Shown one piece after another: positions 47,101-50,457 of a DNA stretch of 64,000 nucleotides. The position numbers were made by a program, and so were the translations under genes. The first letter of the stretch is position 1, and every line of letters begins with the position of its first letter. The notes below the pieces were generated by a model, which was not told the DNA's origin, made no database searches, and saw only the letters and a program-made list of their open reading frames with translations. Origin of the DNA: Plumapathes pennacea (lineage: Eukaryota; Cnidaria; Anthozoa; Antipatharia; Myriopathidae); contig OZ038462.1 of assembly GCA_964036295.1 (NCBI GenBank), forward strand, positions 32,005,355 to 32,069,354, given 5' to 3'.

Positions 47101-50100
47101 ATGATGCCGTCCTACACAAAGTTGTTGGTGGTAGCTTTCTGCTTGTCAGCCCTCCTACCTGATATTGTCTTTTCCAAGGATATTGCTAAGAAAGAAAAAC
47201 CTCAGGATAAATTGGGTAAGACTTTTTTTTTTTCTGGAAGATGATTGTTATGTTCACACTGAGAGGGTAACTGGTTTATTGAGTAAGATGTCATATAGAT
47301 ATCATATAGCCTGTTCCAGGCTCTCGTGATACTGACACGGCTGCAAAAAGTGGCGCGCGAAAGACTGGGGCGAAGGCGGGAGGGAGAACTGGAACAGGTT
47401 ATAATGCCCCTGGTGATACTAGCGATGTCTCAACAGACAAATCTGTTCACAGTGGTCCGGCACACATTCAACATCCCATGGAAGCACAGCTCCTCACACC
47501 CCTTTACCCATCCGTACCACCACAATCTTAGTCTATACCATTTTAATTTTATCTCCTTAACTCAAATCATTTAAATCTCTCAACCTATCACGAACACCAC
47601 AGCTGCAATGAAACTCCTTACTTCCAATTTACGGAAACCGGTCATATTTTTAAATTAGTTCTCAGCCTCCGAAAATGGCAGGAAAGGGCGAGCCAAATCT
47701 CAAAAATTTCCCCGGACCCCCTAGAATGTCGCGCCTTCGTCGCTTACACGTTTGAAAACCGGTCTCATTTTCTGATAGATTCATTCCTGAATTACATGCC
47801 ACGTCGATCCTAATATGTAAAATTCTGACAATACCCGTTCCTTAGCCTTTATCTTCATCGTTTCATTTAAATTTAATTCCTATTTCCGTCTGAACCACTC
47901 CCCACAAACTCCGTCACATTTCTCACAAAAACAACGGCAAAGGAGCCCGAATACCCACAAAAGTATACTACAATCTGAATGACTGTGCCAATGTGGTCCG
48001 CCTATGGAGAAAAAGAACCCACGCAGCCTCTGGGCCTAATTCCGGAACACGTGGTCCGTTCTTTAGGCCGTTTAGTAACTATTTGAGAGCCATTTTATCA
48101 ATATGCCTAGATTGGAAGAGTTTTGCTTATTGTCTTCGGTTTTAGGGCTCTTGAAAACAAGGCAATTGGAAATTAAATAGGCTAATAGAATTTATTATCT
48201 GATAATTGTTGTGAGCCTTCTTCGATGATCTTTGTGGTATGTATCTAGAAGACATTAATGGTACCTCTGTCTGCTTTTTTTAAGATTGAGTTCGTTGTTG
48301 CTTTACAGTACGCTGATTGACTTTCGCTCGTTACCTGATATGTTATCTGGTTGAGGTGTAAAAAATCCTTCCCTACGGCTTTTTTGGAACACAGTCGATA
48401 ACAGTATAGAACCTTTAAAGTAGTAAGGGTGAGTTTATATCAATGATGCATGTTCAGTAGGTATTCAGACAATAACAGCATAAAACTGCTCAAGAGAGTG
48501 TGCATAAGAGTGATTTTGTTTGGTGTAATGTATTGGAAAACGTTTATATGTTACTTAGTTTGTGTACGTGATGTCTACATCCACAGATGTACATCTGGGT
48601 CATCATTATATTGATGGAAGTCGCGACCCAGCAGCAACAGGTCCAAATCCCGCCGCCACATTTTTGGCTAGTCATCTTCCGGGAGTGGCACAGCAGCGTG
48701 GTGGTGGTTTTAGACAGTTTGCTGCCGTTTGGATGATCAGTCAGGGGAATTTTGTATATCAACCTTCCGGTAATGGAAATACACCCCTGATCGACAGAAA
48801 AAACTCATACTCCCCCAATCCCGTCCAAAATGGGCAGAACTACATCGTTGCCAGACCATTATCAAAGGATTTCCATGCGGAGCAAGTGATATATAATCAG
48901 GTACAGACGGTTGATTACCTAGTTACAAAGGCTTATAAGGAGTATGAAAACACTCTTTTCCTCGTTCCTTCGTTTCCGTCGCCGGCTTTGGTTAAAATAT
49001 ACCTATCATCCGGTACAGAGTAAACGCGAGGCCATCCGAAAAGACTTTTAATCATTCAACGCAATCAGAGCGTCATGAACACTTAGTGGATACAGGAAGT
49101 ACTAACCACCGACTTTCAGAAGTGCAGCGTTACAATTTGTTTATTTTCATCAAAGCAGTGCAATTGTGTTAATCTTTGTTCTAGTTCAAATGTCTGTCAA
49201 TTTCGTTAATTTTGCTTAAATTGAATCTGAATCTTAGGGAAAATGACAACTCTTAAATCTATTTTAGTCCAGGGAAGCTTGTCTTGTTTGTATAATGTCC
49301 AGGCACAAACCAGAACATTTTCTCAAAATCATCCACTGCAAAGTGCTTTAAACAAACCGTGTAGTTCCTGGTTGGTTGCCACTTTGCTAGCTTCAACTTT
49401 ACATGCAAAATTGACCCACTTTATCCGCCTTTTCCTTGCTTGTGGTTAATTGTTCCCCCGCAATAGTGAAGCGCAATGCCCTCTTCTAGGTTTTTAGTAT
49501 TGATCTACTTCCTCCTACAAAGCATCTGTTCGGAATTTTAAAGTTATTTTCCTGATTGTCACCACACTTCCGCTAACATCTGAATATAGGCAAGTTACCG
49601 GGATGACGTCACGATCTTACTAGACTCATGCTTCAAATAAATGTTCGATCGCGCGGTCATAATTATGGCTACGCACTGTTTACTAGACAGTCTAGTTAGT
49701 AAAGAGACTTTGATAGGCCGCATTGTAGAAGGTCGATAATTTGGTCAAAAGCTTCACTTTTTCGCCAAAGTATTTCGGTGATATGACGCGTTTTGGGGTT
49801 TAGGGGCACTTTAATTTATGAACATTCACCTGGGTGGAATGGTGCAGTTTGGCTGCTTTGTTCTGGAAAATCTGCAATATGCGTTAGCCACCAAAGTAGT
49901 ATTGGCCTTATCGCACCAGACTGTTGTCACATTGCATGTATTCATTCAATTATCATTACAAACATTATTATTATTATTATTATTATTATTATTATTATTA
50001 TTATTATTATTATTATTATTATTATTATTATTATTATTATTATTATTATTATTATTATTATTATTATTATTATTATTATTATTATTATTATTATTATTAT

Positions 50101-50457
50101 TACTGTACTGTTATTTTCATGCACCACGGATAAATGTCGATCTTGTGACGCTTCCCTAAGTATTTAGTGATGTGGATGGTCATTTTTGTGTGATCGATCT
50201 TCTATCATTTTGTTTAGGTGACAAAGAATAATGCTCTCACGACTTATCAAGGGACTACACAGGTGCTGATGTATTCCTACCTTTACCCTTGCACGTCGTG
50301 CACGGGGCTAATACGTACACTGAAGACTACGCTGGGAGCTCAGCTTCCATTCACTGTGGCATATACTGAGCCGTATGGAACTAAAGCGGACATGAAAGAT
50401 AGCGCAGATGCTTTCAAAAGAAGCGGCATAACTATAATACAATACGATTTCTCCTGA
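47101..50457 (+). CDS. Predicted secreted AID/APOBEC-like cytidine deaminase (SNAD-like), copy 1
   Basis: Exons 47101-47215, 48587-48900 and 50218-50457 give 222 residues. All junctions are GT/AG and in phase. Residues 1-25 are a strong signal peptide (LLVVAFCLSALLPDIVFS). A short Lys-rich linker follows. The deaminase-like region carries H135-A-E137 at the end of exon 2 and P167-C168-T-S-C171 in exon 3. These are the zinc ligands and proton-shuttle Glu of the cytidine deaminase fold. The HAE-to-PC spacing of 29 residues, and the hydrophobic strand 'VLMYSYLYPC' before it, fit AID/APOBEC-type enzymes. Metazoan secreted AID/APOBEC-like deaminases (SNADs) have been described, and this layout matches them. 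Substrate and activity are unknown. Intron 2 contains a long (ATT)n tract. The start is preceded by 'CTA' after an acceptor, so a 5' UTR exon lies upstream. A poly(A) signal is at 50474. Confidence 0.8.
49964..50102. repeat. (ATT)n microsatellite, about 46 units
   Basis: About 139 bases of uninterrupted TTA/ATT lie in intron 2 of deaminase copy 1, between the HAE exon and the PCxxC exon. Several long low-complexity frames on both strands are artefacts of it. Confidence 0.95.

Follow-up and report, generated by a model that had tools for sequence, protein, structure and literature searches.

Gene A of the cnidarian Plumapathes pennacea belongs to a divergent, expanded family that is best read, with a probability of roughly 0.6, as a set of secreted deaminases acting on nucleic acid in biological conflict, with activity, substrate and role being predicted. 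The gene lies in a stretch of 64,000 nucleotides (C1:32005355-32069354, referred to as the window) and is one member of a cnidarian multigene family. Its predicted product is a zinc-dependent deaminase that is secreted and has the cytidine-deaminase fold. The argument is built on the gene structure, on the zinc-site motif retained across the family, on the pattern of divergence among copies and on the relationship of the proteins to described deaminase families.

Gene structure and putative zinc site

Gene A consists of three exons joined by GT-AG sites, resulting in an open frame of 222 residues (window 47101-50457, + strand). Exons 1 and 2 are joined in phase 1 and exons 2 and 3 in phase 0, the latter junction falling between HAE (residues 135-137) and PCTSC (residues 167-171), and the spacing from HAE to PC amounts to 29 residues. 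The features are as follows:

47101..47215, + strand: exon 1, signal peptide and short linker, with a phase-1 donor GT at 47216
about 47101-47175, + strand: predicted signal peptide, residues 1-25, cleavage site set by eye
48587..48900, + strand: exon 2, first half of the predicted deaminase domain with FAAVW, NYIVARP and HAE
48874..48882, + strand: HAE, presumed zinc ligand H135 and presumed catalytic E137
50218..50457, + strand: exon 3, second half of the predicted domain, from VLMYSYLYPCTSC to ITIIQYDFS and stop
50287..50301, + strand: PCTSC, presumed zinc ligands C168 and C171
50474..50479, + strand: AATAAA downstream of exon 3, possible polyadenylation signal

The hydrophobic leader, identified in a hydrophobicity scan, reads MMPSYTKLLVVAFCLSALLPDIVFS. 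The first-pass annotation had described a signal peptide followed by HAE-x29-PCxxC across a phase-0 splice junction, and the 222-residue model bears this out, including the numbering of H135, C168 and C171. The identity of gene A as a secreted zinc deaminase is well supported at the level of sequence. Intron 2 holds a long ATT/TTA trinucleotide run (49964-50101), and the corresponding run in a further copy, copy C, is longer.

Other loci in the window and in the genome may be mentioned here. Exons of a class C GPCR, possibly GABA-B-like by sequence, are located on the - strand at 10305-14788 of the window, with a 7tm_3 match over cut-off at 10305-10688, one just below cut-off at 11736-12107 and a weak ligand-binding region, also below cut-off, at 14363-14788. 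Exons for a Cyclopropane-synthetase-like (CMAS) methyltransferase, over cut-off, reside at 21708-23072 on the same strand. Two STING-domain loci (C12:13527422 and C6:10712478) both exceed the Pfam cut-off. The STING domain is nearest to PDB entries 8gjz, 8efm, 8efn and 5cfl to 5cfr (155 to 177 bits, against 113 bits for the one ranked next), which we take to be mostly coral and Nematostella proteins, in agreement with a cnidarian source. The GFP family, used as another marker of the phylum, gave no match in the genome, a result that carries no information.

A multigene family with a conserved motif

A search of the genome (290 Mb in 24 contigs) with the gene A protein gave nine matches at E <= 0.001, and paralog queries widened the family beyond these; the best candidates were scored, and the locus counts given here are lower bounds. 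At least 12 loci on six contigs combine an exon bearing HxE with one bearing [PA]CxxC, both on one strand and no more than about 3 kb apart, namely gene A in the window and copies at C6:21.58 Mb, at C1:3.107, 3.093, 2.955, 3.061, 3.032 and 3.074 Mb and at C5:13.07, C3:9.176, C2:3.370 and C7:13.41 Mb; the copy at C1:3.093 Mb contains a frame break within exon 2. Outside these 12 lie isolated exons, the copies B and C neighbouring gene A, incomplete copies of exon 2 within the C1:2.9-3.1 Mb cluster and another short copy of it at C5:13.058 Mb. Five near-alike fragments, each covering exon 2 from its beginning as far as about AAIWV, are found on both strands, spread across 140 kb of the C1 cluster (C1:2945315, 3043228, 3063859, 3068594 and 3084518), and are perhaps repeat-borne or the result of recent partial duplications.

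The anatomy of the gene is shared throughout. A phase-0 splice donor is present nine codons past the start of HxE in all 13 loci checked, which comprise nine of the 12 frames plus four further loci, the other three frames being without HxE. Likewise, a signal-peptide-like leader exon with a phase-1 donor precedes exon 2 in 13 of 13 loci scanned, as judged from hydrophobicity only, a method that yielded further leader candidates for A, B and C too. The leader MMPSYTKLL is common to A, B and C, and the remaining ten leaders are related and start with M-x-F or MM-x-F. An alignment of ten paralogs contains 17 invariant columns, among them H96, E98, C129 and C132, which correspond to the H, E, C and C of the motif. 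The middle residue of HxE is A, S or P, and the first cysteine is preceded by P in nine of the ten sequences, the exception having ACESC in place of PCxxC. The site agrees with the H-x-E and (P)C-x(2-4)-C signature of zinc-dependent nucleic acid/nucleotide deaminases; with x29, A, D and E fall within the HxE-x(25-30)-PC spacing given in PMC11004436, and the other seven paralogs, with x33 or x34, exceed it. From the NYxxARP-like strand to HxE, the ten sequences span 5 to 17 residues. In an unrooted tree of the ten members, gene A pairs with the copy at C6:21.58 Mb with a support of 0.991.

Judged from the sequences, the pairing of HAE with PCTSC is no chance motif, with at least 12 loci carrying both halves, and the conserved anatomy has the appearance of a kept zinc site. 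Since the paralogs keep the intron position, its phase and the zinc-site residues, exons 2 and 3 are very likely spliced together; the earlier assumption that the two form one unit agrees with their conserved pairing, position and phase.

Exon-bounded divergence between gene copies

Paralog B lies downstream of gene A in the window, with two recognizable exons:

56721..56835, + strand: paralog B exon 1, 98.3% identical to exon 1 of gene A
59576..59901, + strand: paralog B exon 2, contains HAE, DNA 71.4% identical to exon 2 of gene A

No exon 3 of its own was detected for paralog B when the genome was searched with the gene A protein at E <= 0.001, the exon-3 matches on C1 being confined to A and copy C. 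Downstream of copy B, the first exon 3 to be met belongs to copy C and lies at a distance of about 48 kb. The exon 2 of copy C is decayed and devoid of HAE.

The contrast between a conserved exon 1 and intron 1 and a diverged catalytic exon 2 in the A-B pair is newly described here. Intron 1 is 96-97% identical and its last 86 bases are 90.7% identical, exon 2 drops to the 71.4% listed above, and identity rises again to 95.8% over the opening 24 bases of intron 2, so that the step in identity coincides with the exon edges. Differing sites number 88 of 308 aligned in exon 2 versus 38 of 1206 (3.2%) in intron 1 (Fisher p 8e-37), and exon 2 also differs from its immediate flanks, in which 9 of 110 bases are changed (Fisher p 5e-6). 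The exon 2 sequences are further separated by indels of 12, 6, 3 and 3 bases that leave the frame open, and the differences are distributed over codon positions 1, 2 and 3 as 36, 26 and 25. Exon-bounded excess change is a pattern of the A-B pair that is not uniform over pairs, other pairs being milder. Between A and C, identity amounts to 79.9% in exon 3, 82.5% at the end and 86.2% in the middle of intron 2 and 89.7% in the 3' flank; the aligned part of exon 2 (84.6%) shows no dip below the adjoining intron end (82.6%). For the copies at C1:3.032 and 3.074 Mb, the values are 81.4% for exon 2, 83.1% for intron 1, 90.1% for intron 2 and 90.8% for exon 3.

Over seven paralog pairs, dN/dS ranges from 0.65 to 1.29. 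The interval includes 1 in five pairs and lies below 1 in two, both of which involve the C5 copy, and therefore some constraint exists; between the closest paralogs, dN/dS is near 1 and no purifying constraint is detectable. Taken together with the A-B pattern, diversifying selection on the catalytic exons is suggested by these sequences but not proven. It is a serious possibility, falling somewhat short of even odds, that the A-B contrast came about by exon exchange or by gene conversion of the flanks and reflects relaxed constraint and not conflict-driven selection. The contrast may stem from an exchange with some older copy because the dS of exon 2 (0.40) far exceeds the 3.2% divergence of intron 1, and several copies are decayed or truncated, in line with relaxation, as are the five dN/dS intervals that include 1 and the missing dip in the aligned exon 2 part of A versus C. 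This reading is opposed by the fall of the A-B step on the exon edges, by indels in threes with an open frame, by H, E, C and C being unchanged in the ten aligned copies and by the two pairs with dN/dS below 1.

Relationship to described deaminase families

The ten paralogs scanned fit no curated Pfam family, not a single match reaching its curated cut-off. For gene A, the best single match is Toxin-deaminase (PF14424; E 8.6e-6, 26.4 of 29.6 bits), followed by dCMP deaminase zinc-binding (8.5e-4), NAD1 (1.6e-3), SNAD4 (0.01) and another five models. All Pfam matches of gene A stay below cut-off, and NCBIfam gave none for this gene. At E <= 1, the ten members were matched by 14 Pfam families, of which only Evr1_Alr and GFD1, with one member each, are non-deaminases. 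NAD1 and APOBEC_N each matched nine members, SNAD4 seven, APOBEC2 six, Toxin-deaminase three and SNAD1 and dCMP deaminase two each. The best E-values per family were 6.1e-6 for Toxin-deaminase, 8.7e-5 for SNAD1, 1.1e-4 for APOBEC_N, 1.4e-4 for NAD1, 4.2e-4 for SNAD4 and 0.011 for APOBEC2. In bits, the closest approaches to the cut-offs among the ten members were 22.8 of 25 for APOBEC_N, 22.5 of 27 for NAD1, 23.0 of 25 for SNAD1 (PF18744) and 20.8 of 27 for SNAD4 (PF18750). The first-pass annotation had predicted a secreted AID/APOBEC-like deaminase and had named SNAD and other AID/APOBEC-like profiles as the check: the secreted-looking protein with a zinc-deaminase site stands, whereas in all ten members every match to these profiles stays below cut-off.

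Genes that do pass such models are present elsewhere in the genome. The locus C6:2584527-2584898, found via the APOBEC4_like and SNAD4 models, passes nine AID/APOBEC-type cut-offs, SNAD4 included. SNAD4 is likewise over cut-off at C6:2131134 and C6:2133195, and APOBEC4_like at one of these separate AID/APOBEC-type genes. The SNAD4 model hit five places in the genome, all outside the gene A family (best 60 bits), and the family was not among the loci listed for either of the two models. A comparison of the family profile with the protein from C6:2.5845 Mb in hhalign resulted in a probability of 19% (E 0.0012) with the PCxxC region aligned, compared to 0.1% (E 0.43) for an unrelated STING domain as a control. 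Because of this weak match and the sub-cut-off Pfam matches, kinship of the gene A family with AID/APOBEC at the superfamily level is likely from a sequence standpoint; the evidence stops short of membership in the AID/APOBEC or SNAD group.

Descent from a bacterial polymorphic-toxin deaminase (BURPS668_1122 or related), acquired in a cnidarian ancestor independently of the AID/APOBEC line and put to secreted antimicrobial or offensive use, appears unlikely to us, though it deserves attention in view of the top-ranking Pfam match of gene A, which scored 26.4-26.9 of the 29.6 bits demanded by PF14424. The same model leaves seven of the ten paralogs without a match at E <= 1, tblastn confirmed no relative among the viral contigs, prokaryote genomes and plasmids searched, and the conserved introns imply that residence in the animal genome would be old at the least. 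The alignment used to search viral contigs and prokaryote genomes held one chimeric row, and gene A served as the confirming query. On the cnidarian genome itself, PF14424 gave no match, which is no evidence of absence because the model was silent in 14 of 14 controls as well and exons are searched separately.

It is improbable that the family is a cnidarian branch of true SNADs too divergent for the Pfam models, and SNAD membership, as put forward in the first annotation, could not be upheld. Consistent with such a branch are the signal-peptide-like leader, which agrees with the SNAD signal-peptide criterion at 13 of 13 loci in the hydrophobicity scan, the match of SNAD1 to one paralog (8.7e-5, 23.0 of 25 bits), the sub-cut-off SNAD4 matches to seven of ten paralogs and the three-exon structure, shared with 14 of 18 fish SNAD1 genes in Table 1 of PMC11004436. 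Against such a branch speak the failure of every match to reach its cut-off, the SNAD4 model exceeding its cut-off at other loci instead and the absence of the C-terminal cysteine cluster described as a SNAD trait in that paper: there is no cysteine after the motif in A and D and there are one to two in the other eight members, two last exons being cut by the locus end and giving two and one in their full versions. Moreover, the weak SNAD4 matches are not specific because eight of 14 control prokaryote genomes also match this model below cut-off.

In the PDB, sequence searches retrieved no convincing deaminase, the best being a dCMP deaminase at E 0.031 in a profile search, ranking behind sulfhydryl oxidases and a RING-box protein. 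This hit, along with the match of the dCMP/cytidine deaminase zinc-binding model to gene A at 8.5e-4, could point at a secreted enzyme that deaminates free cytidine, dCMP or some other small molecule in scavenging or digestion and does not act on nucleic acid, which is the least probable reading, as that model matches just two of ten members versus nine of ten for NAD1 and for APOBEC_N, and as family expansion and rapid divergence are unusual for housekeeping salvage enzymes.

Predicted fold and mode of action

AlphaFold models were made exon by exon from the window frames, with copy B as second row for exon 2. Exon 3 alone was modelled as strand-helix-strand-helix-strand at a pLDDT of 51, an order of elements that would be expected of deaminase strands 3 to 5, and exon 2 reached a pLDDT of 38. 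Foldseek with the exon-3 model returned no deaminase among the best 50 matches listed and nothing at E <= 0.001. Because the exon-wise models are poor, we infer the cytidine-deaminase fold from sequence.

Returning to a secreted nucleic-acid deaminase employed in conflict, H135, C168 and C171 would bind one zinc ion and E137 would shuttle the proton in the conversion of C to U, with single-stranded DNA or RNA as the probable substrate. The segment of variable length that leads from the NYxxARP-like strand to HxE may help to shape the substrate groove. Following secretion in vivo as predicted from the leader, the enzyme could act extracellularly, in vesicles or in the gut lumen on nucleic acid from microbes, viruses or prey. 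Fast change is common among immune and weapon genes, and an arms race would fit both the family expansion and the fast-changing catalytic exons. A more far-reaching version, which we consider tentative and rather doubtful, is that of a hitherto undescribed family of animal deaminases, secreted and probably mutagenic, that stands apart from AID/APOBEC, was expanded into clusters in a cnidarian lineage and can be hypervariable in the catalytic exon, as opposed to the leader or the introns. If true, an early-branching animal would possess an extracellular mutation-based defence or weapon comparable to venom or immune-effector genes. With a dozen or more members, a kept active site and divergence that follows the exon bounds in two neighbouring copies, the cnidarian family offers a test case for extracellular deamination of foreign nucleic acid and bears on the question whether bacterial toxins gave rise to secreted deaminases a single time or several times. 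Deaminases that are small and divergent also attract practical interest for base editing.

Comparison with known systems

Among the literature matches listed, which did not extend to Krishnan 2018 and Iyer 2011, no title or opening of an abstract described a family of secreted deaminases in cnidarians. Passages of PMC11004436, PMC8201067 and PMC3482391 place SNADs in vertebrates and sponges, once also in protochordates, and do not mention cnidarians. Catalytic activity and function of SNADs, the secreted deaminases known best, were called unknown in 2024 in a passage of PMC11004436 and their function still so in 2026 in the abstract of PMC13402138. The gene A family resembles the fish SNADs in being secreted, here by virtue of a predicted leader, and in HxE followed by two cysteines. 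Multiplicity is reported for fish as well, carp having 13 SNAD1 genes according to a passage of PMC11004436. The family differs from SNADs in remaining below the SNAD1 and SNAD4 cut-offs and in lacking their typical C-terminal cluster, which passages of the same paper specify as three cysteines. Furthermore, the leaders of fish SNAD1 are strongly different from each other in these passages, whereas those of the paralogs described here are alike.

With AID/APOBEC-like deaminases (APOBEC_N, NAD1, APOBEC4), the family shares the same motifs in the same order, and most paralogs match the respective models below cut-off. Unlike these, the gene A family is secreted-looking, and it is the C6 locus that passes nine such cut-offs, the family profile matching this locus weakly. 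The BURPS668_1122 toxin deaminases (PF14424) provide the best single match of gene A, but seven of the ten paralogs go unmatched, and gene A itself is an animal gene that contains introns and encodes a leader of eukaryotic type.
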